The translations under genes were made by a program, and so were the position numbers. Shown one piece after another: positions 7,231 through 30,364 of a stretch of 64,000 bases of DNA. The DNA lies in NCBI GenBank assembly GCA_021604525.1, contig BQJD01000006.1, positions 1 to 64,000 on the forward strand. Reading direction: 5' to 3'. Within the stretch, counting starts at the first letter, position 1. Each line of letters opens with the position of its first letter. The notes below the pieces were generated by a model. That model made no database searches. It was given only the letters and a program-made list of their open reading frames with translations, and was not told where the DNA came from. This stretch comes from a marine bacterium B5-7 (lineage in GTDB: Bacteria > Pseudomonadota > Gammaproteobacteria > Arenicellales > CAJQKF01).

Positions 7231-9060
<1,830 letters not shown>

Positions 9061-9069
9061 CCGGTGTCA

Positions 9070-9097
9070 GGCGGTCGCGGCGTGAGTCGCGGCCGCC
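9070..9097 (+). promoter_or_regulatory. Stable hairpin between nirS and nirE
   Basis: GGCGGTCGCGGC, loop GTGA, then GTCGCGGCCGCC: a 12-bp stem with two G-U pairs, very GC-rich. No U-tract follows. It lies in the 74-base gap after nirS and could act as a partial terminator or a 3' stabiliser that keeps nirS mRNA more abundant than the heme d1 genes. Confidence 0.6.
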
Positions 9098-9134
9098 GCC
9101 AACGGCGATCGAGTCAAGCGGAGAATATAATAAA

Positions 9135-9923: not shown

Positions 9924-10203
9924 CGCACTGATGTCGATAGCCTTGGCCAGCGAGTCGTCAGCACCCGGTGATTCTCTTCGCTACCTGCTTACCCATGATT
10001 GTGGATCGTGTCACGGCATGCAGTTGAAGGGCGGTCTTGGGCCACCACTGACCCGCGAAGCGCTCAAGGGTTATCCCGTCGACTATGTGGCACAAGTAAT
10101 CCTTGATGGACGCACCGGTACGGCCATGCCGCCATGGCGCGCATTATTGACCTCTGACGATGCCCGATGGCTCGCCGAACAATTGATCAAGGGAATGGAG
10201 TGA
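9892..10203 (+). CDS. nirC: Cytochrome c55x NirC
   Basis: 103 residues: signal peptide (about 1-20, ending ALAS), then one c-type heme site Cys37-x2-Cys40-His41, and a candidate distal ligand Met in TAMPPW. NirC is a small periplasmic cytochrome that can donate electrons to NirS or take part in final heme d1 maturation. The start ATG at 9892 has GGAG at 9881-9884 at good spacing; ATG 9886 is too close to it. A longer open frame upstream lies within nirE and is not expected to be translated. Confidence 0.9.
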   Translation: MNRWLYGLVASALMSIALASESSAPGDSLRYLLTHDCGSCHGMQLKGGLGPPLTREALKGYPVDYVAQVILDGRTGTAMPPWRALLTSDDARWLAEQLIKGME

Positions 10204-10205
10204 AC

Positions 10206-11399: not shown

Positions 11400-11414
11400 C
11401 CGAGCGATATTTCA

Positions 11415-11894
11415 ATGTCTGAAGAACAGTTTCAAGGCACGACAATGGAACGATCGCTTCTTAATGATTTTCAACGCGATCTGCCGCCCGTGCCAAGACC
11501 CTTCGAGCTGATTGCCAGGCAGCTCGGCGTTAGTGAAGCTGAGGTGTTGGACTTTCTTCGCAAGTTGAAGGCAAGCGGTACGGTGAGCCGGGTGGGTCCA
11601 GTGTTTGCACCCAACCGATTGGGAGCGAGCACCCTGGCAGCTATAAGCGTACCGCCTGACGAACTGGCACGGGTTGCGTCATTGGTGAGTCGATATCCCG
11701 AGGTGAATCACAACTACGAGCGCGAGCATCGCTATAACTTGTGGTTCGTCATAACCGCACCAGGTCGTCAACGAATTCTCGAGGTTATCGAAGAAATTGA
11801 ATTGCGTTCAGAGTTAAGCGTACTCGAATTACCCATGCTGAAAGATTATTTCATCGATCTCGGATTTCGCATCGACTTCAGGCAAACATCATGA
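11415..11894 (+). CDS. nirD: Siroheme decarboxylase subunit NirD
   Basis: 159 residues, Lrp/AsnC-like fold with an N-terminal winged-helix region (about 12-55) and a C-terminal RAM-like domain. The NirDLGH proteins are not regulators: they decarboxylate siroheme to 12,18-didecarboxysiroheme. This one is of the NirD/NirG (AhbA) type, shown by EVNHNYEREHRYNLWFV. ATG 11415 is used; ATG 11445 (MERSLLNDF) is an alternative nearer the usual length. Overlaps nirL by four bases (ATGA). Confidence 0.9.
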   Translation: MSEEQFQGTTMERSLLNDFQRDLPPVPRPFELIARQLGVSEAEVLDFLRKLKASGTVSRVGPVFAPNRLGASTLAAISVPPDELARVASLVSRYPEVNHNYEREHRYNLWFVITAPGRQRILEVIEEIELRSELSVLELPMLKDYFIDLGFRIDFRQTS

Positions 11895-12460
11895 CGGTAT
11901 CCACTCATACCCGGGCCGAATCTCGATCAACGCTTAAAGATCGCGTGATACACACAATTGAAGGTGGTCTGCCGTTGGTTGAAAGGCCTTATGCTGCAAT
12001 CGCCGAACAGCTCGGTACCGATGAAGGGATGGTGATCTCTATCGTTCGCGAGCTGCTCGACAGTGGTGTAATCAAACGTATCGGTGTGGTTGTTCGCCAT
12101 CATGAGCTGGGCTATCGCGCCAATGCAATGGTTGTGTGGAATGTTGACGATGACATGATCGATGAATTGGGTGAAAGCTTCGGCCATATGCCGTTCGTTA
12201 CCTTATGCTACCAGCGTCCACGACGTCTTCCCGATTGGCCATACAACTTGTTCACGATGATTCACGGTGGTGATCGTGATCGTGTCCTGGCCATGGTGCG
12301 GATTTTGAACACTGATATCGCACCGACGCCACTGCCCCATGAAATACTCTTTAGCGGGCGTCGCTTCAAGCAGCGTGGCGCCAGGTATCGCGGTGATACG
12401 TCAAGTGATAACAAGGTGGTAAATTTATTAATGCAAACATCGATGGACGATATTCGATGA
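11891..12460 (+). CDS. nirL: Siroheme decarboxylase subunit NirL
   Basis: 189 residues, Lrp/AsnC fold of the NirL/NirH (AhbB) type, recognised by IKRIGVVVRHHELGYRANAM and by CYQRPRRLPDWPYNLFTMIH near residue 110. Works with NirD in removing two propionate-side carboxylates during heme d1 synthesis. Starts by ATGA overlap with nirD and ends by ATGA overlap with the nirGH fusion, implying tightly coupled translation. Confidence 0.9.
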   Translation: MTVSTHTRAESRSTLKDRVIHTIEGGLPLVERPYAAIAEQLGTDEGMVISIVRELLDSGVIKRIGVVVRHHELGYRANAMVVWNVDDDMIDELGESFGHMPFVTLCYQRPRRLPDWPYNLFTMIHGGDRDRVLAMVRILNTDIAPTPLPHEILFSGRRFKQRGARYRGDTSSDNKVVNLLMQTSMDDIR

Positions 12461-13443
12461 GGACGTTAAACAGTTTCGAACGTCGTTTCATCAACCAGTT
12501 TCAGGGCGGCTTCCCTTTGATCAGGCATCCCTTCTGTCGTGTCGCGGCGACGCTTGAAATGGGGGAAGCCACCCTGATCCAGATGGTTGATTCACTTGTT
12601 CAGCAAGGATGGTTGTCGCGCTTCGGTCCGCTTTATGACGCCTCGCGCCTCGGTGGTGCGCAAACCCTGGCTGCATTAACAGCGCCTGTTGAGCGTTTCG
12701 ATGAGATAGCCGAAATAGTCAACGGCTTTGACGAAGTCGCTCACAACTATCGTCGTGAACATGAACTCAATATGTGGTTTGTGCTATCCGTTGAGCACCG
12801 TAGCAAGATCGCTCCGGTACTGTCAGCGATTGAGCGATCATGCGGTGTGCGTGTCTATAATTTTCCAAAGGAGAAGGAATTTTATCTGGGCCTGTATCTT
12901 GAGCTTGGAGATGACGGCAGTGTGAAGACCGTGCCTTCACCCGATGCTGACAGGGGTCGCGGTTATCATCTGGATGCGCGTGATAGACAACTGGTCGTTG
13001 CCACACAAAACGGATTGCCGTTGACAGCCGAGCCCTATGCGCTGGTTGCCGAGCAGGTTGGGTTCGATGAGAAAGAAGTGATCAGCCGGCTTCGACTGAT
13101 GCTTGATAGTGGCGCGATCCGCCGTGTAGGTGCTATCCCCAACCATTATCGTCTTGGCTTAAAGGCGAACGGCATGACGGTTTGGGATGTCGCCGATGAC
13201 GATGTTGAAAGTGCCGGTGCGGATATCGCGCGTCTGCCATTTGTAAGCCACTGTTATCAGCGACCACGCTACCAGGGAATATGGGCCTATAACCTGTTTG
13301 CCATGGTACATGACACGCATCGTCAAGGGGTCATCGATAAGGCAATCCAGATTGAGGAAATACTGGGTTCACGTTGTCAATCCAAAGAAATGCTGGTGTC
13401 CAGTGCGTGTCTTAAAAAAGTCGGACTGCGCCTCGCCGCCTGA
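12457..13443 (+). CDS. nirGH: Fused siroheme decarboxylase NirG-NirH
   Basis: 328 residues in one open frame containing two Lrp/AsnC-like units. Residues about 5-155 are of NirG/AhbA type (VAHNYRREHELNMWFV, then NFPKEKEFYLGL); residues about 170-325 are of NirH/AhbB type (IRRVGAIPNHYRLGLKANGM and CYQRPRYQGIWAYNLF). A linker rich in Asp, Pro and Gly (about 152-168) joins them. In Paracoccus the fused pair is NirD-NirL; here D and L are separate and the second pair is fused. Order and domain types support the names G and H. Confidence 0.9.
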   Translation: MRTLNSFERRFINQFQGGFPLIRHPFCRVAATLEMGEATLIQMVDSLVQQGWLSRFGPLYDASRLGGAQTLAALTAPVERFDEIAEIVNGFDEVAHNYRREHELNMWFVLSVEHRSKIAPVLSAIERSCGVRVYNFPKEKEFYLGLYLELGDDGSVKTVPSPDADRGRGYHLDARDRQLVVATQNGLPLTAEPYALVAEQVGFDEKEVISRLRLMLDSGAIRRVGAIPNHYRLGLKANGMTVWDVADDDVESAGADIARLPFVSHCYQRPRYQGIWAYNLFAMVHDTHRQGVIDKAIQIEEILGSRCQSKEMLVSSACLKKVGLRLAA

Positions 13444-13460
13444 TTAACAAGGGAGTTACC

Positions 13461-14708
13461 ATGTTCCGATTGAGCCGTTACTTAAGAGCGATTGAAGCTG
13501 ACGCCTCATCAAGACCAACTATCGCCGTCAAGCCGGATGTTCCTCGCTATAAGCCGAGCGGACCGGTGGTGATCTGGAACCTTATACGTCGCTGTAATCT
13601 CACCTGCACGCACTGCTATGCCACCTCGGCAGATAGGGACTTTGAAGGCGAGTTGTCGCTCGACGAGATAAACACGGTGATGGATGACCTTAAGGGCTAT
13701 GGCGTGCCGGTATTGATATTGTCGGGCGGCGAGCCGATGATGCATCCACATATTCTTGACATCGCCGCACGCGCCAAGGGCATGGGTTTTTACGTTGGAC
13801 TGTCTTCAAACGGGACGCTGTTCAATAAGGAAAACATTGCTGAGATTGCTGCGCTTGATCTTGACTATGTAGGTATCAGCATCGATGGCATGCGTGAAAT
13901 ACATGATCGTTTCCGTCGCCGCGTGGGTGCCTTCGATGAAGCGTTGCGTGGCGTTCGCCTGTGTCATGATGCCGGTATACGAGTTGGCCTTCGTTTTACC
14001 TTGACGCGTGATAATCATGCCGATCTGCCGTCGCTGCTTAAGCTGATGCGCGACGAAAAGGTAGACAAATTTTATCTCTCCCATCTCAACTATGCCGGTC
14101 GTGGTAACCGTAACAGAGCGCGCGATGCTCAGGTGAAAATGACTCGCGATGCAATCGATTTACTGATCGAGACCTGTCTTGACGATATTCGCAGCGGGCG
14201 TCACAGTGAATTCGTCACTGGCAATAACGATGCCGATGGCGTTTATCTGTTGCATTGGGTTCGACGCAGCATGCCTGATCAGGCTACACGCCTTGAAGAC
14301 ATACTCAGGCGTTGGGGTGGCAATTCATCCGGCGTTAACATTGCCAATATCGACAATCTCGGCATGGTGCATCCTGACACCATGTGGTGGGACTATTCAC
14401 TAGGCGGCGTACGTGAGCGACCATTTTCCGAGATTTGGGAAGACACGCGCGATCCGTTGATGCGTGGTCTGAAGTCAAAATCAAGACCGCTTGAGGGTCG
14501 CTGTGCGGTTTGCACGCATCTTGATATTTGCGGCGGTAACAGCCGCACCCGTGCGTGGCAGTTGACGGGTAATCCATGGGCAGAGGATCCCGGCTGTTAT
14601 CTTCACGACGACGAGATTGGCGTGAGTGAAATGCCGCCTCGAATCGATGTGACGCCTTACTCGAAGTTGCGCAACCGCGCTGTAGTCGGGGTGAGATTTG
14701 GTCGATGA
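13461..14708 (+). CDS. nirJ: Radical SAM heme d1 enzyme NirJ
   Basis: 415 residues. The radical SAM cluster motif is Cys45-x3-Cys49-x2-Cys52 (CNLTCTHCY), followed by a TIM-barrel core with SGGEPMMHP and GISIDGM. A C-terminal SPASM-like region holds further cysteines (CAVCTHLDICGG and a Cys in EDPGCYL) for a second iron-sulfur cluster, as known for NirJ. It replaces two propionates by oxo groups on the didecarboxysiroheme. RBS GGGAG at 13450-13454. Stop overlaps the nirN ATG. Confidence 0.95.
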   Translation: MFRLSRYLRAIEADASSRPTIAVKPDVPRYKPSGPVVIWNLIRRCNLTCTHCYATSADRDFEGELSLDEINTVMDDLKGYGVPVLILSGGEPMMHPHILDIAARAKGMGFYVGLSSNGTLFNKENIAEIAALDLDYVGISIDGMREIHDRFRRRVGAFDEALRGVRLCHDAGIRVGLRFTLTRDNHADLPSLLKLMRDEKVDKFYLSHLNYAGRGNRNRARDAQVKMTRDAIDLLIETCLDDIRSGRHSEFVTGNNDADGVYLLHWVRRSMPDQATRLEDILRRWGGNSSGVNIANIDNLGMVHPDTMWWDYSLGGVRERPFSEIWEDTRDPLMRGLKSKSRPLEGRCAVCTHLDICGGNSRTRAWQLTGNPWAEDPGCYLHDDEIGVSEMPPRIDVTPYSKLRNRAVVGVRFGR

Positions 14709-16273
14709 AGTGGAATCAAATCCTGCTGTTCATCGTCGCAGGAGTAGTTATATGGACGTCTTTATTATCTGGTAATGCACGCGCGACAACAGACACGATA
14801 GAAGAGGACTATACGACACATTGTGCCGAGTGTCATGGTGCTGGCCGGCTCGGTGGCATGGGTCCTGCCTTGTTGCCGGAAAACCTCAAACGGGTATCCA
14901 AAGACGAGGCAGTTGAAGTGATTCTCAATGGCCGTACCGCTACCCAGATGCCGGCATTCGGCAATATCCTCGACAATGAAAAGGCCCGTGCCCTGGTGGA
15001 GATGATTTATACGCCGCTTGCGCACATACCGGTGTGGGATATCGAGGCGATCAGGGCGAGCCATAAAATACTCGCACCAACGCCTGCACTCGACGGTCCG
15101 ATATTCGATGCCGATCCAACCAATCTTTTTATTGTCGTAGAGCTTGGCGATCATCATGCCACGGTACTCGATGGCGACCTGATGGAACCGATTCATCGTT
15201 TCAAGACACACTTCGCACTTCACGGCGGGCCCAAGTATTCTTCTGATGGCAGGTTCGTCTACTTCGCCTCGCGCGACGGCTGGATAAGCAAATACGATTT
15301 ATGGAATCTCACTACAGTGTCGGAGGTGCGTGCAGGAATCAACACACGCAACCTGGCGGTATCCGCCGATGATCGTTTCGTCATGGTGGCCAACTATCTG
15401 CCGCATACGCTGGTGATACTCGATGCCGAGGATCTCTCGCCGATTCGCGTTATCGATATACGTGATGCTGAAGGCAATTCTTCACGCGCAAGTGCTGTTT
15501 ACGTTGCCCCCCCACGCGAAAGTTTTGTTGTTGCCCTGAAGGACATTGCCGAGGTCTGGGAGATTCAGTATCGTGATAATCCCTTACCGGTATACAACGG
15601 CTTGATGCATGACTATCGCCTTGCCGAAGGACTCGCCGAGCAGGGCATGTTTCCGGTACGAAGAATTCAACTTGACGACTATCTCGACGATTTCTTTTTC
15701 AGTCAGGACTACCGCCGGTTATTTGGTACGGCACGCAATTCGAAAAAAGGTCAGGTCGTGCAGATGGACATTGGTCGAAAAATCGCCGAGCTTGACATCG
15801 ACGGCATGCCGCACCTCGGTTCGGGTATCACCTTTGACTACCAGGGTCGAACCGTACTGGCCACACCCAACCTGCGCAAGGGTGAGGTGACTGTAATCGA
15901 TCTTGAAACATACAAAACCATCAGGCGTATCGAAACACTCGGACCGGGATTTTTCATGCGCAGTCATGAGAACAGTCGTTATGCATTCGTCGATGTATTT
16001 TTTGGCAAGGACAGCGACGCGATTCATGTGATCGACAAGGCGACCCTTGAAATAGTCGAAACGTTACGACCTGAGCCCGGCAAGACTGCAGCCCATGTGG
16101 AATTCGATCGCGATGGACGCCATGCACTGGTCAGTATCTGGGACATGGATGGCGCGGTGGTCGTCTATGACACCGCATCGCTCAAAGAGATTAAGCGCCT
16201 GCCAATGGTCAAGCCCTCCGGTAAATACAACGTTCACAACAAGATAACGCGTTCGTCCGGCACCAGTCACTGA
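14705..16273 (+). CDS. nirN: Dihydro-heme d1 dehydrogenase NirN
   Basis: 522 residues: signal peptide (about 1-27), cytochrome c domain with Cys40-x2-Cys43-His44, then a d1-type propeller similar to NirS but with diverged active-site residues. NirN introduces the last double bond into the propionate side chain of dihydro-heme d1 and hands the cofactor to NirS. Starts inside the nirJ stop (ATGA). Last gene of the heme d1 run; a short TGAAAG/CTTTCA hairpin follows at about 16276-16293 without a clear T-tract. Confidence 0.92.
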   Translation: MKWNQILLFIVAGVVIWTSLLSGNARATTDTIEEDYTTHCAECHGAGRLGGMGPALLPENLKRVSKDEAVEVILNGRTATQMPAFGNILDNEKARALVEMIYTPLAHIPVWDIEAIRASHKILAPTPALDGPIFDADPTNLFIVVELGDHHATVLDGDLMEPIHRFKTHFALHGGPKYSSDGRFVYFASRDGWISKYDLWNLTTVSEVRAGINTRNLAVSADDRFVMVANYLPHTLVILDAEDLSPIRVIDIRDAEGNSSRASAVYVAPPRESFVVALKDIAEVWEIQYRDNPLPVYNGLMHDYRLAEGLAEQGMFPVRRIQLDDYLDDFFFSQDYRRLFGTARNSKKGQVVQMDIGRKIAELDIDGMPHLGSGITFDYQGRTVLATPNLRKGEVTVIDLETYKTIRRIETLGPGFFMRSHENSRYAFVDVFFGKDSDAIHVIDKATLEIVETLRPEPGKTAAHVEFDRDGRHALVSIWDMDGAVVVYDTASLKEIKRLPMVKPSGKYNVHNKITRSSGTSH

Positions 16274-20093: not shown

Positions 20094-20219
20094 ATGTCCG
20101 GATTCTTTATCATCGGCATTGCCATCAATGTAATCGTGCTGGTGTTATTCGCCGTATGGTTCATACGGCAATGGCGTCAGAGTGCCGGGAAACATTCAGG
20201 GAAAAGCCCGCCTCGATGA
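20094..20219 (+). CDS. 41-aa membrane peptide upstream of SCO gene
   Basis: ATG 20094 to TGA 20217-20219, 41 residues: one hydrophobic helix (about 3-24, FFIIGIAINVIVLVLFAVWF) followed by a basic tail RQWRQSAGKHSGKS. The stop overlaps the next start as ATGA, strong evidence that it is translated. I do not recognise it; by size and place it could be a small accessory subunit or assembly factor of the heme-copper enzymes encoded nearby. Confidence 0.65.
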   Translation: MSGFFIIGIAINVIVLVLFAVWFIRQWRQSAGKHSGKSPPR

Positions 20220-20845
20220 AGCTCCTGCCGAAAGGAACTGCCGTTTTGCTGGTTGCATGGATCGTTATCATGGCGTTCGTGGCCGCGTTATTCTGGTTCA
20301 ATGAGGACACTGTTGACATGGATCTGGCGAGTATCCTGCGTCCAGTCGCAACGCCACTGAAGTCGTTCGAGCTGACTGATCAGTTTGGCGATCCGTTCGT
20401 ACTTGATAATCTTGACGGAAAATGGAGCTTTGTATTTTTCGGTTACACCTATTGCCCGGATATCTGCCCGGCAACTCTGACGATATTGTCATCACTTGCT
20501 CGCGACCTCGAATCGCGAGGACTTGGCAAAGACAATTTCCAGATGGTGTTCGTATCCGTTGATCCCGAACGTGACAGTGTGGAACAGATTCGCAAGTATC
20601 TGGCATTTTTCGGTGATCGTTACATCGGTGTAACAGCGGAGCCTGATGAATTGCTCGCGTTTGCGAAACAATTCGGCGCGATGTTCGAAAAGCAGGGCGA
20701 CAGCTCATCGGATGCCTACTACATGGCACATACCAGTTCTATCTTCCTCGTCAGCCCGAAGACCGAACTGGTGGCGGCGTTCTCGCCGCCGCATGACTAT
20801 AAAACCATCTCTTCCCTGTTCCTGAAATACATCGAATGGCGATAG
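20216..20845 (+). CDS. SCO1/SenC-family copper chaperone (plus-strand operon)
   Basis: 209 residues from ATG 20216; the frame is open further upstream but that part overlaps the 41-aa gene. A membrane anchor (about 9-28) precedes a thioredoxin-fold domain with the copper site CPDIC (C-x3-C, in GYTYCPDICPATL) and a distal His in YMAHTSSIF. SCO proteins deliver copper to the CuA centre or reduce its cysteines. It is one of two SCO genes in this region, the other being at 25233-26051. Confidence 0.92.
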   Translation: MKLLPKGTAVLLVAWIVIMAFVAALFWFNEDTVDMDLASILRPVATPLKSFELTDQFGDPFVLDNLDGKWSFVFFGYTYCPDICPATLTILSSLARDLESRGLGKDNFQMVFVSVDPERDSVEQIRKYLAFFGDRYIGVTAEPDELLAFAKQFGAMFEKQGDSSSDAYYMAHTSSIFLVSPKTELVAAFSPPHDYKTISSLFLKYIEWR

Positions 20846-20890: not shown

Positions 20891-21316
20891 ATGAACTTTG
20901 TCACCGTCGCACCACCCGTTCTGGCCGCCCTTAATGTAACTGCCGCCACGTTGATCACTACGGGGTTTGTGCTCATTCGCAATAACCGTCGCCGAGCTCA
21001 TCGCTATTGCATGATTAGCGCCCTCATGGTCTCCACGATTTTCATGGTTATATACCTTTACTATCATTCCATAGTCGGCAACATCCCATTCGCGGGTAGC
21101 GGTGTCATTCGTCCTGTTTATTTCTCCCTGCTTGCCAGCCACGTGATACTGGCAGCGGTACTTTTTCCGCTTGCACTGTTCACCGCGGGACTCGCCCTCA
21201 CCGGCAGAACGATTCGCCACAGACGGGTCGCGGTGTGGACGTATCCGGTCTGGCTTTACGTATCCGTCAGCGGTGTCATTATTTATTTGATGGCGTTTCA
21301 TATCTATACCGGCTAG
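20891..21316 (+). CDS. DUF420 membrane protein
   Basis: 141 residues with four membrane helices (about 7-28, 39-60, 79-102, 115-137) and conserved histidines, including RRAHRYCMISA and YHSIVGN. The DUF420 family (CtaM-like) is required for maturation of some heme-copper oxidases. It sits directly after a SCO gene, as in many oxidase and NO reductase clusters. ATG 20891. Confidence 0.85.
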   Translation: MNFVTVAPPVLAALNVTAATLITTGFVLIRNNRRRAHRYCMISALMVSTIFMVIYLYYHSIVGNIPFAGSGVIRPVYFSLLASHVILAAVLFPLALFTAGLALTGRTIRHRRVAVWTYPVWLYVSVSGVIIYLMAFHIYTG

Positions 21317-21401: not shown

Positions 21402-21641
21402 ATGGAAATGGTTGTCTATACTGTTGTTGCGTTGGTTCTGTATTGGGTTTCGGACTGGATTGTGAATCGCATTGAAATCCGCCGCGGCCAACGCCTCGAA
21501 CATCGCTCCTTGTTGTTCTTCGTCATCATCATGGTTTTGGCGGTTGTCTCATTTCAGGCAATTCAAATGTGGCGCGGTCCGATCGAGGCAGGCGGTTCGA
21601 CCGATGACGCCACCTCGGCCACATCGAGCGAAACACAATAA
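21402..21641 (+). CDS. Small two-helix membrane protein
   Basis: 79 residues from ATG 21402; an open frame reaches 21357 but the sequence before MEMVVYTVVALVL looks like leader. Two hydrophobic helices (about 3-18 and 34-50) flank a basic loop NRIEIRRGQRLEHR; the tail is rich in Ser and Thr. Family not recognised. The last 113 bases overlap, on the opposite strand, the 3' end of the second heme-copper subunit gene. It probably belongs to the SCO-DUF420 operon. Confidence 0.55.
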   Translation: MEMVVYTVVALVLYWVSDWIVNRIEIRRGQRLEHRSLLFFVIIMVLAVVSFQAIQMWRGPIEAGGSTDDATSATSSETQ

Positions 21642-22989
21642 CCAGGAAGACAAGACCACCGATCACGGAGATCAGGCCGCCTAGTCCCATAAGTCCCATG
21701 CCGGCAATTTTCTCGATGCCATCTAAAACCTGTGCATCGCCCGCGGTTTTTCGCTGCACGCCGTAGCCGCCTGACCAGGCCAGCCCAATGACGTGTAAAA
21801 GTTGACCGCCGCCATACAACCAGGGTTGTGCAACAACCAGTCGACCCACTGGTCGCTTGAATCCGAGCAGCGGTAATATGTGATATGTCACACCCATATA
21901 GGCGAGCGTGATGGCGACAATCGAACCATGATAATGAGCGGGGACAGTGACATTACTGCCATTGATCATGAAGCCGATGAGACCACCGGCACCAAACAGG
22001 ATCATCGAAGAAAACAACGCCGAACGCTCCGCACCAAAGCCGCCGGTATGGCCTATAGAGCGGACCATGTTGAACAGGATGACCAGTGAGATGGGTACCG
22101 CTGCCAGCCCGCCGCCGTATTGCATCAACCAGGTCATGGTTTGCAGATGATCGGGTGAATCGACCGTGAAGTTGAGATAGGCGAGCGGTATCATGAGTAC
22201 CGGAAACAGACCGATGGCGAAAAGAAACAGAATGATGCGGGGGGTCAATCGCGAGTTGATACCGGATACGGTTGCCAGCCATAACCACGACACCAGCATG
22301 AGCTGAATGTGCAGGAACTGTAGCGCGTGTCCACCGCCCCAGAAGAGTAACTCGTAGTATCGTTGTCCCGTAATCGTTTCAGGCAACCCAACGTACGACG
22401 CGGCAAAAGCGCCGATGGCCACCAGTGACGCGATCAACGATGAGAAAAGCCCAAATCTCAATGCACCCTGACCACTGATGATTCGTCCTATCGGTCTGAA
22501 GGAGATCAGGCTGTGTACTACCAGGATGGTAAAACCCAATGCAAATATGACAAGGCCGCTGAAGAAAATGGGATCGTCAAGAATCGGGATATAGTTGGTC
22601 ATCATGGGACTGCCGGCGCCGAGGAAGGGCGATAGCGCCATGATCACCGCTCCCGTTGCCGCCAGTACCAGTGCAAGCCAATGAAGCTGTTCCCGATTCG
22701 CAGTGCTGTTGATGCTCCAGAACACACCGGCCATGGCCAGAAACCAGACCAGCACAGTCAGATCCACATGTACTACCAGGGCGGTATGAAAGATATTGAT
22801 CCAGGGGAAGATGTCCTGAATGTAGGGTGTACGCGAGAGAACGATAACGAGCGTTAGCAGCCCGCCGCCGACGAGTGCACCGAGTGCGAGCAGCATCCAT
22901 CCTGTGCTGACAGCCAGCATCTTGTGTTCCGGCATATCGAGGGTGAAGCCATTCAGGTCTTCGCTTTCGCGACTTGATTCAATGTTCAC
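21529..22989 (-). CDS. Heme-copper-superfamily subunit lacking the CuB His pair
   Basis: 486 residues, about 12 membrane helices, COX1-like. Helix II has His68 and His74 (FHTALVVHVDLTVLVWF), helix VI has His221 in LFWGGGHALQFLHIQLM, and helix X has the His352-x-His354 pair of the two hemes (VPAHYHGSIV). The adjacent His-His that binds CuB in helix VII of oxygen reductases is absent: the aligned stretch is AYLNFTVDSPDH. The position four after His221 is Phe, so the cross-linked Tyr is missing too. It cannot be a standard oxidase. It resembles proteins annotated as cbb3-like subunit I in nirS bacteria and may be one of the proposed non-canonical NO reductases (gNOR-like); that name is from memory. 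Last gene of the minus-strand operon. Confidence 0.8.
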   Translation of the reverse strand: MNIESSRESEDLNGFTLDMPEHKMLAVSTGWMLLALGALVGGGLLTLVIVLSRTPYIQDIFPWINIFHTALVVHVDLTVLVWFLAMAGVFWSINSTANREQLHWLALVLAATGAVIMALSPFLGAGSPMMTNYIPILDDPIFFSGLVIFALGFTILVVHSLISFRPIGRIISGQGALRFGLFSSLIASLVAIGAFAASYVGLPETITGQRYYELLFWGGGHALQFLHIQLMLVSWLWLATVSGINSRLTPRIILFLFAIGLFPVLMIPLAYLNFTVDSPDHLQTMTWLMQYGGGLAAVPISLVILFNMVRSIGHTGGFGAERSALFSSMILFGAGGLIGFMINGSNVTVPAHYHGSIVAITLAYMGVTYHILPLLGFKRPVGRLVVAQPWLYGGGQLLHVIGLAWSGGYGVQRKTAGDAQVLDGIEKIAGMGLMGLGGLISVIGGLVFLVIVFRSMWPRWRHRSNRLPRSDRATFELPEMRQPPKP

Positions 22990-23083: not shown

Positions 23084-23590
23084 TCATTGCAGCGAAAACC
23101 CTCCACTATTGGCATCGAATGACACAACCAGGCGCTGCATCGGTTCGATATTCACCGTTTTATCGAAACGATACGTGGGACCTTCGATATTGATATCGTC
23201 GTTCATCCATATAGACAGGTGATGTCTTCCGGCTTCGGTGATGATGTCGCGATATACGTCGACTCCCTGGTCCTGATACAGACCCGGTGCGTCGATGGTC
23301 AAACGTGTCACGGGTTCGTCGTCCAATGATATTTCCAGCTCCAGTGGCGATCGCTCGCGCGGGCAGTCTATGGCCATGCGCATATTCGGTGCCAATTCAG
23401 CAAGCTCATCCGCTGAACGTGTAGCGCATTCGGCTATGCGTTTTGCTGCATGTCCGAACGCCAGTGTCAGCACCGCCTGATTGTCATCGAGATGCCGATA
23501 GGTGGGATAAAGCGAGAAGTACCAGATGAGCGCCATGAAGACGGAGTAGTTCACTGCCTGAAGCAACAGCCTGAATATCTTGCTACCCAT
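23084..23590 (-). CDS. FixH-like membrane-anchored protein
   Basis: 168 residues. One N-terminal membrane helix (about 9-28, VNYSVFMALIWYFSLYP) is followed by a soluble, probably periplasmic, beta-rich domain. A cysteine pair Cys55/Cys75 (AECATRS and AIDCPRE) could form a disulfide. The layout recalls FixH/CcoH-like accessory proteins, but similarity is weak and I do not recognise the family with confidence. It overlaps the end of the cytochrome b fusion gene by eight bases, so the two are co-translated. Confidence 0.6.
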   Translation of the reverse strand: MGSKIFRLLLQAVNYSVFMALIWYFSLYPTYRHLDDNQAVLTLAFGHAAKRIAECATRSADELAELAPNMRMAIDCPRERSPLELEISLDDEPVTRLTIDAPGLYQDQGVDVYRDIITEAGRHHLSIWMNDDINIEGPTYRFDKTVNIEPMQRLVVSFDANSGGFSLQ

Positions 23591-25193
23591 CCTGACTCAC
23601 CCGGGCATCGTCAGCGGCGACCTCATTTGACGCCGGTATGTCATCAAGCTCGGCAATCTCTTTTTGAAACGCGGCCAGCGCTTGCGTGATTTTCTTGCCG
23701 TCTGTTTCGGCGCCACGAAATATCCTGATTCGTCGTCGCTCTGCGCCACCACGTAATCTTGGCTTACGATGACCTTCAAAGCGCTGGTCGAGCCAGACAT
23801 TGCCATATCGAAAATAGCAATCACCGGTGCGGCAACCGGTAACGAACACACCGTCGGCGCCTTTTTTAAGCGCATACTCTATTAATGTTGCCGGTAGCAT
23901 GCCGGTGCAGAACACGCTGACTGCAGCGATACCCTCGGACTCGAGCCGACTGACCTCATAGGCATTGTCGCAACCGAAGACCACGATGCCGGTATCCTTG
24001 TCGATGAGCGTCGCGAGTGCGGCATCGGTTTGCGTACGCATGCCATTAGCCGAGTAATTCGGCATGTCTATTCCGGTTACCAGATCCTGATTGCGTTGTC
24101 TGAATGGGTTAGATGATGGACAGGAGCCGACGCAGATACCACACGACGCACACAAGTCTGGATCGACCACAGCCTCATGACTCCATCTGGCATCGTCAGT
24201 ACGTGGCAGTATGTCTATCGCATCGAAAGGGCAGTCATCCGCGCATTGTCCGCAGCCGTTACACGCTTCAAGATAGACCTGTGCTGCCGGCCCCCTTTTT
24301 TTCGGTGGCAGCCACGGCAAAATCATCAACAGGAAGGTGACACCCAGGGTAAGCATCCATGTCTGACCGGCTGTCCACTGGTCCACCAGCGGATAAACAT
24401 TGAGATAAAACCAGTCGAGATTCAGAACGAGCGGCACACTCGACAGATCAGCGGGTCCGTGGCTTTCGGCGGGCTTGATGATCGATAACACCAGCAAGGC
24501 CAGCAAGCTTCCCACTGCAAGTCCCCGTGGCGCGCTGATCTTTACATGGGAAAGGCGTTTGACGTGAATCCATATGGCAACAACCAGGATGATTGGTTGA
24601 CCGAGCAAATGCAGGAATGCCATCAGGGTAAAGAACCGGTCGGTCAGATGACCGACAAGAAAATCACGGGTCATCGAGCCCGCCACGATCGGCAGGGTGT
24701 CCATAAGCTGTGAGGATAATATGGCGACGTACAGCGCAAGTTCGTCCCACACCAGCCAGTAGCCGGTAATACCCAAAGTGATCACGAACCATAGAGCCGG
24801 CACTCCTGTGAACCATGAGAACCATCTGAAACTGCGATAGCGATCGAGCGAGAACTCGCGCAGCATATGTAGCAAAATGGTGACCACTGCTGCATCCGAT
24901 GCATAACGATGCAGGCTGCGCATCACCCCACCCATGTACCATTGCTCATGGGTCATGTACTCCACCGACGCATAGGCGCCGGCGATGCTGGTGTCGAAGA
25001 AAATGAACAGGTATAGCCCACTGACCAGCACCACCCAGAAGAAAAAGAATGCCAGAGTGCCGAGGTTATAAAGCGGGTTCCAGGCCGGACCAAACGACAA
25101 ATTGAACCACGCTTCGAGTGCTCGATAGCTTCTCTTGACCGGGTTAATCACATCAGTTTCCAGACAGAATTCGATGGATTGGCAAGCTGGCAT
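23583..25193 (-). CDS. Cytochrome b / 2x[4Fe-4S] / MvhD tripartite fusion
   Basis: 536 residues. Part 1 (about 25-295) is a cytochrome b domain with heme ligands His95/His109 (13 between) and His195/His210 (14 between, as in cytochrome b6), plus LNLDWFYLNVYP, which recalls the quinol-site PEWYFL motif. Part 2 is a double ferredoxin: Cys311, 314, 317, 321 and Cys348, 351, 354, 358. Part 3 (about 400-480) matches MvhD/FlpD, the [2Fe-2S] subunit that links hydrogenases to heterodisulfide reductase, with Cys408, 429, 454 and 459 (VTGCRTGDCYFRYGN). The fusion could pass electrons between the quinone pool and a cytoplasmic donor or the NO-reducing subunit. The ATG at 25193 lacks a clear RBS; a GTG at about residue 15 has GGAAA before it. 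Confidence 0.85.
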   Translation of the reverse strand: MPACQSIEFCLETDVINPVKRSYRALEAWFNLSFGPAWNPLYNLGTLAFFFFWVVLVSGLYLFIFFDTSIAGAYASVEYMTHEQWYMGGVMRSLHRYASDAAVVTILLHMLREFSLDRYRSFRWFSWFTGVPALWFVITLGITGYWLVWDELALYVAILSSQLMDTLPIVAGSMTRDFLVGHLTDRFFTLMAFLHLLGQPIILVVAIWIHVKRLSHVKISAPRGLAVGSLLALLVLSIIKPAESHGPADLSSVPLVLNLDWFYLNVYPLVDQWTAGQTWMLTLGVTFLLMILPWLPPKKRGPAAQVYLEACNGCGQCADDCPFDAIDILPRTDDARWSHEAVVDPDLCASCGICVGSCPSSNPFRQRNQDLVTGIDMPNYSANGMRTQTDAALATLIDKDTGIVVFGCDNAYEVSRLESEGIAAVSVFCTGMLPATLIEYALKKGADGVFVTGCRTGDCYFRYGNVWLDQRFEGHRKPRLRGGAERRRIRIFRGAETDGKKITQALAAFQKEIAELDDIPASNEVAADDARVSQDG

Positions 25194-25232: not shown

Positions 25233-26051
25233 TCATGCATTTCCAAGCCGCCGGCCGGCCACCAGTTCGCGAATCAGGAATGCGATGATTCCGAGAATGA
25301 CAACGGCACCGATGACCAGTTCCAGGAACAGTGAGTAATCGAAGAAGTATCCGTCCCGTGCAGGATCGTAGGCAGTACAAAAGAATTTGATCTTGTCGAC
25401 CACACTATCTAGGAACGATTGCTGCGGTTGTGGACGGTTCAATACCAGTTCCATTAACGGATCTATCAGTAACGGTGTTGAAAAAACTTCGCCGTAGACC
25501 TGTCGATATATCCGTCCGTTCGCATCGATTACCGTGGCCTGGACAACATGATCGAAGCCGCTCGGCGAGCCGAAAAATTCAAAACCGAGTTCATCGGTCA
25601 GACCTTTAATGGTTTTTGCATCGGCACTCAGCACATGCCAGCCGTCCTCATCGATACCTTGCTGTTGGGCGAATTGCTTCATCGCAAGAGGTGAATCGTT
25701 GGCGGCATCGAAGCCGAGTACGGCTACATTAAAAGTGTCAGGACCGAGCGCTTCACGGGCTTTTTCGATAACGCCGGCGAGGTAACGCGTTGTGGTTGGG
25801 CAAATTGAATGGCAGCTCGTAAACACCAGGCTCAGGATAAGGGGTTTGCCGCGAAATCCGGCAAAGGAACGCGCCATCCCGTCAGCGTCGGTCAGCGGCC
25901 ATGTCGAGACCTGTCGGCCTATGGCATCCTGACTTGCTTGAAGTGCTGATTTATATTGAAAGTCTTTTACCGCATTACCAGCATCGTCGGCATGCAGCAT
26001 GGCAGGCGACAAGGCGAGCAACAGGGCAAACAGGGTGGGGCGTTTTTTCAT
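25233..26051 (-). CDS. SCO1/SenC-family protein with C-terminal helix
   Basis: 272 residues from ATG 26051. A signal peptide (about 1-21) precedes a thioredoxin-fold SCO domain with CHSIC (C-x3-C in FTSCHSICPTT) and a distal His in FDHVVQATV. Unlike most SCO proteins a membrane helix lies at the C-terminus (about 245-265) rather than the N-terminus. It should serve copper insertion into the CuA subunit encoded upstream in the same operon. It follows the heme O synthase gene by 37 bases. Confidence 0.88.
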   Translation of the reverse strand: MKKRPTLFALLLALSPAMLHADDAGNAVKDFQYKSALQASQDAIGRQVSTWPLTDADGMARSFAGFRGKPLILSLVFTSCHSICPTTTRYLAGVIEKAREALGPDTFNVAVLGFDAANDSPLAMKQFAQQQGIDEDGWHVLSADAKTIKGLTDELGFEFFGSPSGFDHVVQATVIDANGRIYRQVYGEVFSTPLLIDPLMELVLNRPQPQQSFLDSVVDKIKFFCTAYDPARDGYFFDYSLFLELVIGAVVILGIIAFLIRELVAGRRLGNA

Positions 26052-26088
26052 CAAGCATCAGGTCGGTTTTATGGCCGGAAAATCGCGA

Positions 26089-26937
26089 CTACAGGATATC
26101 CAGCACAGCGAACGTCAACAATACGATTAGTTGCACGAGTGAGGCGAAGAAGCTTTTCATTGCCGTTTTTCGCGAAGGCGCGTGCGCTAGTTGGGCGCTG
26201 CGATAGATAAAGTATCCACCACCCGTTAGGGCTCCCAACAAATAGAACCATCCCAGACCGAAAAAGAATGGCAGAATTGACACGATCACCAGGGCAATGG
26301 CATTCCATAGCACCGCATTGGCTGCGCTTTGATCACCCACCACAACCGGAAGCATGGGAATGCCGGCGGCTGCATAATCCTTGCGACCGGCAATCGCGAG
26401 ACTCCAGAAGTGCGGTGGTGTCCAAAGAAACAATACGACTGCCAATATTACCGGTATGGGTCCGAGTTGCGGATCGACCACAGCCGCGCCGGCGAGTACC
26501 GCGAAGCTGCCGGATGCGCCACCAATGACAATATTCATCCAGGTGCGGCGTTTCAGCCAGACGGTATAGACGATCGCGTAGAAAAACGCACCGAGGAATA
26601 CGAACAGCGCTGCGGTAATATTAAGAACGATTGCTGCAGCGCCCACGCTGACAATCAATAGCGCCGCGATGATCAGCAACCATGGTGTTCCATGCTTGAA
26701 ATCACCGGTAACAAATGGCCGGTTACGGGTCCTCGGCATTAGCGCGTCAAGATCCCGTTCATAATACTGATTGAATGCACCGGCGCTGGCTGAAGCCAGC
26801 AGAACCGCGAGGGTGAGAACCATGGCTTGCACCAATGACACCGAATCACCCGGCGTCACCAGCAGCGCTACGAGCGCGGTAATGGCCATCACCACGCCAA
26901 TGCGGATTTTGAAAACGTTAACCAGTTGAGCGATCAT
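26089..26937 (-). CDS. ctaB: Protoheme IX farnesyltransferase (heme O synthase)
   Basis: About 282 residues from ATG 26937, which has GGAGGAG eight bases upstream; the longer frame to 26979 lacks such a site. UbiA-type prenyltransferase with about eight helices, first Asp-rich motif NQYYERDLDALMPRTRNRP and the second region GRKDYAAAGIPMLP. Converts heme B to heme O with farnesyl diphosphate. Inclusion in the operon suggests that one of the heme-copper subunits carries heme O or A; no heme A synthase gene is in the window. Confidence 0.92.
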   Translation of the reverse strand: MIAQLVNVFKIRIGVVMAITALVALLVTPGDSVSLVQAMVLTLAVLLASASAGAFNQYYERDLDALMPRTRNRPFVTGDFKHGTPWLLIIAALLIVSVGAAAIVLNITAALFVFLGAFFYAIVYTVWLKRRTWMNIVIGGASGSFAVLAGAAVVDPQLGPIPVILAVVLFLWTPPHFWSLAIAGRKDYAAAGIPMLPVVVGDQSAANAVLWNAIALVIVSILPFFFGLGWFYLLGALTGGGYFIYRSAQLAHAPSRKTAMKSFFASLVQLIVLLTFAVLDIL

Positions 26938-27017
26938 TCTGGTAACTCCTCCGGGTTCAATTTGCCATAGCGTAACCACATAAAAGTGGAAATGCCCGTG
27001 CCTGTCGGTGTGCTTGT

Positions 27018-27099: not shown

Positions 27100-28836
27100 T
27101 TAACCCATCGGCCAGACGGATGCCAGGTATTTCCAGTTGATGAAGTAATACACAACAAAAGATACCAGCAGCAATATTGCGAGTGCGAAGGTGCCTGGTG
27201 CCTCGAACCCGGCAGAACCATGTTCTTCCACCGTAAGTCGCGGTGCACGAGCAAGTAACTCCGGACGATCGACGTTATAGACGCCAGGGGCCAGTGCCTT
27301 GCCGAGAAAGCTTTGCAAAAATCCTGCAGACGGCTCGAGTTTCTGACCGAACAGTAGTGATCCCACGGTGATCAACAGATAAGCCGCACCGCCGACAATC
27401 GCAGCCAGACCGCCGATAGCGGCAATTGCCATGAGCGTGTAGGCCATTCCCGGATATTCGAATGTCATCGCAGCCCCGGTGAAATCCATGTCCCAGTGAC
27501 GTCGTGAAACGCCCAGAGTACCTGCGCCCAGCATGAACAGGATCAGGATCGTCATGCCACCGCCGAACAGGTAGGGTTGCCACCTGGCGAGCGTCGGCAG
27601 GATGATTTTTCGTCTGAACAGAACCGGGATCAACAGGTAGGTCAGCGCCATGAATGTCAGTGTTGTACCAACCGCTACCGTTGCATGGAAGTGCGCTGGG
27701 ACATAAATCGTGTTGTGGATGATCAGATTGATCTGCTCAGTGCCCATTACCACACCGGTGATACCGCCAATGAATCCGAAGACGACCAGCGCAATGAACA
27801 TGCCGGAGAACACGGGATTACCCCACGGCGCTTTACGTAACCACTCGAAGTAACCGCGTGTAAAACCTTTTTGACGCTGCGCGACCTCGATTGAACCGGG
27901 TACGGTGAGCCCGTGAACCATGCTGGCAAGTACCGCCAGGTACATTGCATAGCTGGTGTTGAATATCTTCCACTCGGTTCCAACACCCGGGTCCACGAGA
28001 ATATGGTGGGCGGAGGCAAGCTGAAGAAACAGGATATACAAGAGAAACGCGGTACGGCTGACCTTTTCCGACATCGGCCGTGCGCCGAACAGGACGCCGG
28101 CAATCAGATACCAAACCGATACATGTGCCGCCACGTTGATCTGTTGTGATGAATGCCCAAGTCCCCACCAGATGATGCGATAGGTTTCGGCATCGATATG
28201 GCTGATATAGCCGATGGCCCACAGGAATGTCGGTACCAGGATGATGGCGCCCGATGCGATGGTGAAAACTGCAATGATGGCGGCAGTAATCGCACCGAAT
28301 GTCACCAGCGGGACAGACCCCTCGTAGGTTTTTTCCTGGTAGGCGACCACCAGCGTACCGAAGAACACCAGCACTTGTACGAGCGCGCCGACTGCAAACA
28401 GGATCAGGCCCAGGTAGAAATGTGGCTCGGCCTGCATCGGTACATATGACGTCATCATGACGCTGGACCTGCCCTGGAATACTGCGACATTATTCATCAC
28501 CGCGCCAATCACCATCAGTGCGAAGCCGAACCATGCCCAAGCGGGGGTTGCCAACCGTGATCGCAATAAGGTGGACGAGGCAAAATGCAGGATCGCCATC
28601 TCGAAGAAGATAATCCAGAAGATCAGCGCATTGATGCCATGCGCCGTGAGAACCATGTAAAAGTCCTGCGGCGGAAGCAGGTGAACCTGCTGCCATCTTG
28701 TCAGTACGACACCGAGGGCAAGCACGCCGGCGAGCAGCAACGCTACCACACCCGCAACAGCATTCACTTTGATCAGGCTTTCGGCCGATTTGTGAAAGTA
28801 GAATCCCGAATCGGGACAGACTCTGAAGTTAGCCAT
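27100..28836 (-). CDS. B-family-like heme-copper subunit I, Tyr-to-Gln active site
   Basis: 578 residues from ATG 28836, with AGGAG at 28846-28850; the frame's earlier TTG is unlikely. About 13-14 membrane helices. Ligands: His66 (AHGINALIFW, low-spin heme), His228 (WGLGHSSQQIN), His277-His278 (ASAHHILVDPG, CuB), and His382-x-His384 (VPAHFHATVAVG, the two hemes). Numbering is close to the Thermus ba3 oxidase. The residue four after His228, a cross-linked Tyr in oxygen reductases, is Gln232. That loss is a mark of NO-reducing members of the superfamily (sNOR/eNOR types in the literature), so an NO reductase is the best guess; an oxidase is less likely. CuA subunit gene directly upstream. Confidence 0.85.
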   Translation of the reverse strand: MANFRVCPDSGFYFHKSAESLIKVNAVAGVVALLLAGVLALGVVLTRWQQVHLLPPQDFYMVLTAHGINALIFWIIFFEMAILHFASSTLLRSRLATPAWAWFGFALMVIGAVMNNVAVFQGRSSVMMTSYVPMQAEPHFYLGLILFAVGALVQVLVFFGTLVVAYQEKTYEGSVPLVTFGAITAAIIAVFTIASGAIILVPTFLWAIGYISHIDAETYRIIWWGLGHSSQQINVAAHVSVWYLIAGVLFGARPMSEKVSRTAFLLYILFLQLASAHHILVDPGVGTEWKIFNTSYAMYLAVLASMVHGLTVPGSIEVAQRQKGFTRGYFEWLRKAPWGNPVFSGMFIALVVFGFIGGITGVVMGTEQINLIIHNTIYVPAHFHATVAVGTTLTFMALTYLLIPVLFRRKIILPTLARWQPYLFGGGMTILILFMLGAGTLGVSRRHWDMDFTGAAMTFEYPGMAYTLMAIAAIGGLAAIVGGAAYLLITVGSLLFGQKLEPSAGFLQSFLGKALAPGVYNVDRPELLARAPRLTVEEHGSAGFEAPGTFALAILLLVSFVVYYFINWKYLASVWPMG

Positions 28837-28842
28837 GATCAA

Positions 28843-29379
28843 TTACTCCTTCACGTATATTTTGCCGACCATGGTGTGATGGCCGATACCGCAGTATTCG
28901 TTGCATATCACGCCATACTCGCCTGCCTTGTCTGGCGTGATCTCGATGACCATCTCGTACCCTGGAACAACCTGCAGGTTGATATTGGTTGGTTGCAATG
29001 AAAAGCCGTGCTGCCAATCCATGGAAGAGAGATGAAGCCGATAGCTTTTGTCTTTCTCCAGTTCGAGAATGGGCCACCATTGCCACAATCGACCCAGCAT
29101 ATAAATATCGCTGCCGGCAGGTGGTGCCACCACGGGCAAGTTGGCTTCGTCGCGTACCTTGTACTGCTCGACCATTGCCTGAACTTTCGCACCGTACGCT
29201 GCGGGAGTAGTCTGGTATGCCTCGGTGGAAAGATTTTGTTTTCCGTATATATGCCAGTACGGCATCATCAGGAACATGATCACGCACCAGACCAATGCAA
29301 GCGCGATCCAGACGAGTTCTACGCGTCCGACGGGAACCTTCCACCAGATTCTGTCGGCAGGGGGCATATAGGAAGTCAT
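28843..29379 (-). CDS. CuA-containing subunit II (NorY-like)
   Basis: 178 residues: one membrane helix (about 22-40) and a cupredoxin domain. The CuA ligands are all present: His124 (DWQHGFSLQP), Cys159, Glu161 (backbone), Cys163, His167 and Met170 in CNEYCGIGHHTM. The short length and single N-terminal helix fit B-family (ba3-like) subunit II. It accepts electrons from cytochrome c or cupredoxin and passes them to subunit I. Stop codon lies six bases before the subunit I ATG. Confidence 0.92.
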   Translation of the reverse strand: MTSYMPPADRIWWKVPVGRVELVWIALALVWCVIMFLMMPYWHIYGKQNLSTEAYQTTPAAYGAKVQAMVEQYKVRDEANLPVVAPPAGSDIYMLGRLWQWWPILELEKDKSYRLHLSSMDWQHGFSLQPTNINLQVVPGYEMVIEITPDKAGEYGVICNEYCGIGHHTMVGKIYVKE

Positions 29380-29406: not shown

Positions 29407-29577
29407 TTATGGCGCAACAGGCAGGGTGACGACTTCCATGATTCCCCATATGATGTAGAACACTGTGGGCATGGTGACACCGATAAATAGCAACAGGAAC
29501 GGGTTATCCAGTAACGACTGCATCGCAGGGATGCGTTCTTCTGGTTCTTGGGTGGTATTGTCGGTAGGGTCGCTCAT
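29407..29577 (-). CDS. 56-aa membrane subunit of the heme-copper operon
   Basis: ATG at 29577, TAA at 29407-29409, 56 residues. The first 22 are polar and acidic (TTQEPEERIPAMQ), then one membrane helix NPFLLLFIGVTMPTVFYIIW. It is the first gene of the operon, 27 bases before subunit II. Size, single helix and place match the small subunit IIa of ba3-type oxidases or the equivalent peptide of related NO reductases; sequence identity to either cannot be judged here. Confidence 0.7.
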   Translation of the reverse strand: MSDPTDNTTQEPEERIPAMQSLLDNPFLLLFIGVTMPTVFYIIWGIMEVVTLPVAP

Positions 29578-29869
29578 TTATTCTCCCCCGAGATAGCCGG
29601 TTTAAACAGAATCAGTTTTGGTTTAAAACGCAGAGCCCGGACATCGCGTATTCCATTTGCGACGTCCGGCGAAACAAACTCCGACCGAAGGAGCCGTTGC
29701 CTCTTCTACGTGTTACAAAAAGTACACTTCCGTATGTATAAAATCCTTGATTAAAGTCAATAATTTGGATTATTAAGGTCCGTATTGCCGACTTGGTGCG
29801 ATGGCGGGGGAGTTAATTCTAAGGAGCGCTTACAGAGCTGAGTGGTTTGAGAGACGTAAGACTACGGGT
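29578..29869. other. Control region between heme-copper operon and periplasmic protein
   Basis: 292 bases without a gene. It holds the Dnr/FNR box and AT-rich promoter sequence for the minus-strand operon; the part right of 29770 shows no feature I can support. Confidence 0.5.
29747..29760 (-). promoter_or_regulatory. Dnr/FNR box upstream of the heme-copper operon
   Basis: TTGATTAAAGTCAA matches the consensus TTGA-N6-TCAA and reads as TTGACTTTAATCAA on the minus strand, almost the same as the nirS box. It lies about 170 bases upstream of the 56-aa gene; a weak -10 (TGTACT, minus strand, 29726-29721) sits 20 bases downstream. This links the heme-copper operon to the same regulator as nirS. 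Confidence 0.75.
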
Positions 29870-30364
29870 TCAATCGGGTACGAGTCGATAATGGACTTCC
29901 AGCTTTTTGACTATGCCCGGGTTCATGATAATCATCTCGTTGTCAGAGAATATGATTTCGCATGGAGCCGAAAGAGAGCAGTCGAACATAACCCGGCCAT
30001 CGATTGTTTTGACCTTATCGATATGAGCAACTATCGCTTCATCGAGGATGCCGAAATCGCCCCGAATGTAAGCACTTTTTGTGGTTTGTGCGCTGACTGA
30101 CTCGAACACCTTGCGTATCGCGTCCGCTGAAACTTCTGCGGAGTACGGGTAGGGAATATAAAGCCGTACGATGCGGTTTTTGGAAAAGAAACGGATATAT
30201 TGGTTGGCCCCGGACAGTTCGGCCAGGTCGCTGTCGTTTCCTTCGCGGACAAAGTATCCTGAAGTGATTAAAGCATTGTTGTCGTCTTGCGCGTGCGTGT
30301 CTTGAGCAAATACTGATCCCGTGAAAACAATTACAAACAACAATAATGTGTGCATCTTGACCAT
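29870..30364 (-). CDS. Secreted hypothetical protein
   Basis: 164 residues with a good signal peptide (about 1-20, cut after VFA-QD). The mature part is mixed alpha/beta with Cys pair in FDCSLSAPCEI (about 129-136), a likely disulfide. No recognised domain. It is read towards the heme-copper operon but is 290 bases upstream of it with a control region between, so it is probably a separate unit. Divergent from sthA. Confidence 0.6.
   Translation of the reverse strand: MVKMHTLLLFVIVFTGSVFAQDTHAQDDNNALITSGYFVREGNDSDLAELSGANQYIRFFSKNRIVRLYIPYPYSAEVSADAIRKVFESVSAQTTKSAYIRGDFGILDEAIVAHIDKVKTIDGRVMFDCSLSAPCEIIFSDNEMIIMNPGIVKKLEVHYRLVPD

Follow-up and report, generated by a model that had tools for sequence, protein, structure and literature searches.

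A cytochrome b - ferredoxin - MvhD protein is a near-obligate companion of eNOR in Pseudomonadota and probably its dedicated electron-input or maturation part

Results

An eNOR-type operon in the marine bacterium B5-7

We analyzed a stretch of 64,000 nucleotides from the marine bacterium B5-7 (contig BQJD01000006.1, positions 1 to 64,000; hereafter the window). Its minus strand carries an operon encoding, in this order, a small transmembrane (TM) ORF, eNOR subunit II, eNOR subunit I, ctaB, a SCO protein, a cytochrome b - ferredoxin - MvhD protein that we call CBFM, the orphan protein P168 and HCO2, a second heme-copper-type membrane protein. From subunit II to HCO2 the genes are spaced by 0, 120, 34, 39, -8 and 94 bp. 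Subunit I (27100-28842, minus strand; Pfam and alignment) carries H68, H230-SSQ-Q234, H279-H280, H384 and H386. Gln replaces the active-site Tyr (HxxxQ), the three CuB His are kept, and H230-SSQ-Q234 and H279-H280 were invariant in 16 aligned subunit I sequences including those of Thermus and Thermomicrobium. Subunit II (28843-29379, minus strand; COX2/CoxB matches) is a CuA-type cupredoxin with CNEYCGIGHHTM and lies upstream of subunit I, as in eNOR. An active-site Gln, here within H230-SSQ-Q234, is the signature that defines eNOR (PMC8756737). The earlier note on this DNA had placed CBFM in an NO-reduction operon, and the signature bears this out: the operon is of the eNOR type, with an NO-reducing function predicted from that signature.

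ctaB/cyoE (26089-26979, minus strand) matched heme O synthase above cut-off (TIGR01473), and the SCO/SenC protein (25233-26054, minus strand; Pfam) belongs by family to copper delivery to CuA. On the plus strand, a DUF420 protein (20891-21316) and a second SCO/SenC protein (20156-20845) were identified by Pfam; both recur as neighbors in the neighborhoods read. A nirS gene cluster occupies 7249-16273, its genes assigned from relatives and sequence. Upstream of the operon we noted an FNR/DNR-like box, TTGACTTTAATCAA, with one mismatch (29747-29760, minus strand; motif scan). As such near-matches are common by chance (5 seen in the window versus 3 expected), only the position of this box ahead of the eNOR operon counts, and it is suggestive.

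The small ORF at the head of the operon encodes 56 residues with a single TM helix (29407-29577, minus strand) and was recognized by sequence comparison. In 37 of 41 loci (for instance L176 11181-11363, L177 9238-9393 and L178 9307-9432), an ORF of 41-60 residues with a single TM helix and the motif LLDNPFLLLF..PT.FY..WG.ME directly precedes the gene for eNOR subunit II; one was found in Thermus and Thermomicrobium too. We regard the product of this ORF as a probable third, small subunit of eNOR that has gone unannotated. A separate recurrent neighbor is a secreted-looking protein of 164 residues without a Pfam family (29870-30364, minus strand), which repeatedly adjoins the eNOR cassette or HCO2/SCO genes (29 ORFs in 80 loci).

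CBFM joins a bc1-type cytochrome b to cytosolic Fe-S modules

CBFM is encoded by one 536-residue frame at 23583-25193 on the minus strand. All His and Cys residues previously listed for this frame were found in place, namely His 95, 109, 195 and 210 and, among the Cys at positions 4, 10, 311, 314, 317, 321, 348, 351, 354, 358, 408, 429, 454 and 459, those assigned to two [4Fe-4S] clusters and to the MvhD domain. Pfam recognized Cytochrome_B at residues 39-213 (E 4e-18), two 4Fe-4S motifs at 306-360 and FlpD/MvhD (PF02662) at 414-516 (E 5e-18; 65.8 bits against a cut-off of 22.3). Combining these matches with alignments, we delimited a six-helix cytochrome b part at residues 17-300 (24294-25145; also profile and model), two ferredoxin motifs at residues 304-365 (24099-24284; C311, C314, C317, C321 and C348, C351, C354, C358) and an MvhD/FlpD domain at residues 402-518 (23640-23990; C408, C429, C454, C459; also NCBIfam), all on the minus strand. 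Since conservation begins at about residue 15 and codon 15 is GTG, the start may lie later than the ATG at 25193, possibly at that GTG.

H95, H109, H195, H210, D260, W261 and 12 Cys were invariant among 126 non-redundant full-length CBFM relatives, with C311R in one MAG as the sole exception; the architecture is therefore not a product of chance. Relatives were sought within Pseudomonadota genomes, on plasmids and in viral contigs, and the viral contigs contained none.

The profile of CBFM matched bc1 cytochrome b through the Qo region, and b6 was matched too, so that the membrane part is a six-helix cytochrome b and not merely a four-helix b6. In an AlphaFold model (mean pLDDT 83), residues ~24-300 aligned with bc1 cytochrome b at a Z-score of ~20. 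The four heme His lie on helices B and D with a spacing of 14/14-15, as in cytochrome b of the bc1/b6f type. His 95/109 and 195/210 had been named as heme pairs in the earlier note. The residues are present, but each of these pairs comprises the two His on one helix; as ligand pairs, cytochrome b homology predicts H95/H195 for an outer-face heme and H109/H210 for an inner-face heme, across the helices. The proposed joining of membrane hemes to cytosolic Fe-S clusters is supported.

D260-W261 falls at the place of Glu-Trp in the PEWY motif of bc1 (aligned by eye on the Trp). Its invariance suggests a quinone pocket, although its role could be merely structural. The Cys that holds the extra heme of b6f is absent from CBFM. 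For all the likeness to bc1/b6f in fold, in the four His and in the helices through the Qo region, CBFM differs in that its Fe-S domains are fused on the cytosolic side and in that the eNOR/CBFM cassette contains no Rieske or cytochrome c1/f partner genes. A complete bc1 is encoded elsewhere in the B5-7 genome; the Qo motif of its cytochrome b is PLWY rather than PEWY (L002 1411-2664, genome contig C4).

The NCBIfam matches of CBFM, each under cut-off, were to ExtP (cytochrome b), to ExtQ (helices) and to the C-terminal part of HdrA2. With ExtP (NF040969) and ExtQ it shares the cytochrome b fold, the four His and the succession of ExtP-like then ExtQ-like segments, but it scored far under their cut-offs (102 versus 290 and 25 versus 150 bits). 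The HdrA2 match was limited to residues 303-518 (E 3e-26; 92 versus 1100 bits). This corresponds to the ferredoxin-MvhD part of HdrA2 and includes the four MvhD Cys; unlike HdrA2 and the MvhD/FlpD proteins, CBFM lacks the HdrA flavin domain and hydrogenase or HdrBC partners and is joined to a cytochrome b. The analogy with MvhD as a link to hydrogenase, drawn in the earlier note, is weak. We found no second FlpD/MvhD-domain protein in the B5-7 genome. As CBFM is the only one found, there is no hydrogenase/Hdr system with an MvhD of its own, and such a partner was rejected.

P168 is a probable partner of CBFM, and HCO2 a usual companion

P168 (23084-23590, minus strand; model and alignment) is an orphan protein with no Pfam family and no recognizable redox cofactor motif. 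Its model (pLDDT 96) comprises one N-terminal TM helix and a periplasmic beta-sandwich, and H47, C55, C76, R78 and R80 are invariant. Sequence comparison with solved structures gave matches at chance level only. The best structural matches were lumenal or extracellular beta domains, the top one being the lumenal domain of HGSNAT (Z 9.6); to judge from the model, they say only that the fold is common. Because the P168 and CBFM genes share 8 bp in the window and an in-frame CBFM-P168 fusion occurs in genome G017 (TM domain - two [4Fe-4S] - TM - periplasmic beta domain), the two proteins probably act together. A long P168-bearing frame at L224 was considered as a second fusion and rejected, as no CBFM match lay in the same frame; G017 alone was counted.

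HCO2 (21529-22989, minus strand; Pfam and alignment) is a distant heme-copper homologue (COX1, E 1e-10) without a match among solved structures by sequence search. It keeps five of the six canonical His, H74, H352 and H354 for low- and high-spin heme and H221 and H281 for CuB. The three CuB His of a catalytic heme-copper reductase are thus not complete, and Phe225 stands at the Tyr/Gln position. HCO2 is present even when unlinked; its gene frequently abuts or overlaps that of P168.

CBFM travels with eNOR

In a sample of 109 genomes of the order, eNOR was found in 11 and CBFM in all 11 of those. One further genome had CBFM without eNOR; its contig breaks at the expected eNOR site. Across 398 genomes spread over Pseudomonadota, 30 had eNOR, 34 had CBFM and 29 had both, in 12 families. 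The sole eNOR genome without CBFM in this phylum sample (G177) has an eNOR contig that stops after SCO, before the CBFM slot, and completeness is 69-82% for four of the five genomes with CBFM only. With kinship ignored, Fisher p values for the eNOR-CBFM association were 3e-14 (order) and 8e-38 (phylum). Among 22 genomes in which eNOR was not beside CBFM in the stretch read, or which were chosen as edge checks, 19 encoded eNOR. In a Magnetococcales genome CBFM adjoins nirS, yet eNOR is also encoded in the genome. Linkage of the genes alone therefore does not explain the tie.

We then compared other candidates for the partner in 46 eNOR/CBFM genomes. P168 was present in 44, HCO2 with a strong score in 40 and NirS in 35. 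CBFM thus travels with eNOR and not with HCO2 or NirS. Linkage to NirS as the cause of the distribution of CBFM was rejected on the count of 35/46. The expected co-occurrence with a second heme-copper subunit is real, but the strong HCO2 score is missing in six of the 46 genomes, among them G032, which is 98% complete, and the related G042, and HCO2 as an obligate partner was rejected: it is a usual, not an obligatory, companion of CBFM.

The order eNOR2-eNOR1-ctaB-SCO-CBFM-P168 did not vary across dozens of Gammaproteobacteria and a few further MAGs. A Defluviimonas plasmid carries the whole cassette; its annotation reads 'cytochrome b N-terminal domain-containing protein' and 'hypothetical protein'. 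Neither CBFM nor P168 was found alongside the eNOR loci of Thermus and Thermomicrobium, and the chemistry of eNOR therefore does not need CBFM.

Four Sedimenticola-like genomes contain a CBFM paralogue with neither P168 nor eNOR beside it, adjoining a gene for a cyclic-nucleotide-binding-type regulator (L096, L100, L101 and L102, ~9866-11527). A normal cassette with CBFM was seen elsewhere in three of the four.

An NAD(P)H reductase replaces the ferredoxin-MvhD part in a sister protein

In the 100% complete genome G474, a second gene of the cluster encodes the same cytochrome b fused to a 2Fe-2S ferredoxin of the plant type and to FAD and NAD domains. Its cytochrome b is 46% identical to residues 19-301 of CBFM. 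Full-length copies of this cytb-Fer2-FAD-NAD protein occur in ~25 of 251 genomes of the family of G474 (Gammaproteobacteria), they keep the heme ligands and D260-W261, and in each of the 17 neighborhoods read (G474 and 16 further genomes of the family) they are accompanied by a normal CBFM and by eNOR. In a tree built on the cytochrome part and rooted at the midpoint only, the NAD(P)H-reductase form makes up one clade (SH-aLRT 99). Reductase modules with 2Fe-2S, FAD and NAD(P)H-binding domains normally accept electrons from NAD(P)H and pass them to a partner. Because the sister protein carries such a module, normally a donor, the C-terminal half of CBFM appears to be a module for electron input on the cytosolic side that can be exchanged.

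Discussion

Our data lead us to propose that CBFM, with P168, is a transmembrane redox module dedicated to eNOR, to which we assign a probability of roughly 0.85, and that it probably serves as an electron-input or maturation part of the enzyme. Leaving the acceptor aside, we lean towards a flow of electrons from the cytosol to the outer face. On the cytosolic side, electrons would be taken up by the MvhD cluster and the pair of [4Fe-4S] clusters. From there they would move to the inner-face b heme (H109/H210), then to the outer-face b heme (H95/H195), and exit next to P168 through a pocket on the outer face to which D260-W261 contributes. We infer the direction because the NAD(P)H reductase variant exists, and a functional outer pocket because D260-W261 is invariant. 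The final acceptor may be a quinone or the eNOR side, supplying extra reducing power for NO reduction parallel to bc1. Findings against this proposal are the complete bc1 in the genome, the solitary CBFM paralogue without P168 and the CBFM-less eNOR of Thermus and Thermomicrobium. Since bc1 is complete, the CuA site of eNOR can be fed without CBFM.

An acceptor on the quinone or eNOR side is slightly preferred over a close rival, in which the electrons serve copper or thiol reduction during eNOR maturation. Cytosolic electrons would then travel via the CBFM hemes to reduce Cu(II), SCO or a disulfide or copper site of P168, thereby allowing the CuA and CuB sites of eNOR to be filled, with P168 as the outer acceptor. 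We consider this possible, if the less probable of the two. The position of CBFM between SCO/ctaB and P168 speaks for it, as do the frequent neighborhood of the DUF420 protein and the second SCO, the invariant H47, C55 and C76 of P168, and the presence of a bc1 to feed eNOR. CcoG is the cupric reductase of cbb3 oxidase assembly, and the layout of the G017 fusion is much the same (PMC7558416). CBFM resembles CcoG in having two [4Fe-4S] clusters on a membrane protein near heme-copper oxidase genes and a periplasmic beta-rich domain, here the separate P168; CcoG, however, shows no homology to cytochrome b and lacks an MvhD domain, and the CcoG/FixG-type family is absent from the Pfam matches of CBFM and from the 25 NCBIfam matches listed. 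A path from NAD(P)H and FAD through two b hemes to an outer metal is also a known layout of metal reductases. The sister protein is like those of the Fre/STEAP type in that a cytosolic NAD(P)H-FAD module feeds two stacked membrane b hemes, whereas CBFM itself has a ferredoxin-MvhD part and a bc1-type cytochrome b. For the PepSY_TM protein CrpH, a metal-reducing role of this kind in support of heme-copper enzymes has been proposed (PMC13038864). Against maturation stand the quinone pocket suggested by the invariant D260-W261 and the Magnetococcales, whose CBFM-P168 genes often lie away from eNOR and SCO and adjoin nirS. No CcoG or FixH relative of P168 appeared among the Foldseek/VIA matches listed, an absence that is no proof.

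As an extension of the proposed electron input, eNOR, CBFM and P168 (with HCO2 where present) might form one complex in which NO reduction draws its electrons directly across the membrane, with cytosolic ferredoxin or NAD(P)H as the source and neither the quinone pool nor bc1 in between. We think this improbable; if true, the complex would act as a ferredoxin/NAD(P)H:NO oxidoreductase whose input modules can be swapped.

The earlier note had instead suggested that CBFM may work with the second heme-copper subunit in a quinol- or ferredoxin-linked NO reductase. In such an enzyme CBFM, P168 and HCO2 would act apart from eNOR, with P168 in place of subunit II. The overlapping or touching P168 and HCO2 genes, the strong HCO2 score in 40/46 genomes and the retained heme His H74, H352 and H354 would fit. 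Because HCO2 has lost one CuB His, an NO reductase made of CBFM and HCO2 is nonetheless unsupported. Two of three CuB His with Phe at the Tyr/Gln position, the CBFM genomes without strong HCO2 and the lack of a recognizable redox cofactor motif in P168 all argue against it. The strict partners of CBFM are eNOR I/II (29/30) and P168 (44/46), the genome's bc1 can feed eNOR CuA, and there is no sign of CBFM donating to a heme-copper subunit. We hold this enzyme to be doubtful, even more so than the complex with eNOR.

Reverse flow, with quinol oxidized at the outer pocket and electrons passing over both hemes to the Fe-S/MvhD part and a cytosolic acceptor, is more doubtful again. The bc1 quinone-pocket position is kept in CBFM, and MvhD/HdrA modules pass electrons either way (HdrA-Mvh complexes; PMC9012536). 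Transfer from outer to inner face would, however, run uphill, against the membrane potential and towards low-potential clusters; the cassette offers no Rieske or other high-potential partner for bifurcation, and the reductase of the sister protein normally delivers electrons to its partner. Least likely by far is a redox or NO sensor for the denitrification regulon in place of an electron-transfer enzyme, for although the lone paralogue of Sedimenticola-like genomes has a regulator-like gene as its neighbor, the four heme ligands, 12 Cys and D-W are retained as a full set across copies (with the one residue exception), and the NAD(P)H reductase variant fits catalysis, not sensing.

eNOR, one of the recently recognized NO reductases that produce the greenhouse gas N2O, usually appears in annotations as an ordinary cytochrome c oxidase. 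It is said to have been described as a heme-copper NO reductase with an active-site Gln by Hemp and Gennis in 2008 and by Murali et al. in PNAS in 2024. The enzyme served by the cassette is like it in the diagnostic Q234 of subunit I and the CuA-type cupredoxin of subunit II; the described enzyme, however, is a two-subunit core, and CBFM, P168 and the 56-residue ORF are not in the descriptions found. The literature searched, whose scope did not extend to the main 2024 eNOR paper, held no description of the CBFM architecture and nothing that brings MvhD, cytochrome b and NO reductase together, and an earlier description of the neighborhood is possible. All domains of CBFM are known; their combination and the near-obligate tie to eNOR appear to be the new part, as neither was found in the literature searched. 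Assembly and electron supply of proteobacterial eNOR were not worked out in that literature, and the near-obligate pair of CBFM and P168 offers a genetic handle on both. With its very stable cassette order, the pair is also a marker that separates eNOR from oxidases in metagenomes, and the natural swap of ferredoxin-MvhD against NAD(P)H reductase hints at the direction of electron flow.

In Sedimenticola-like genomes (L179-L182) the eNOR cassette adjoins a nos-like cluster (NosL family match, ABC transporter parts), whose genes beside the cassette put NO and N2O reduction together.
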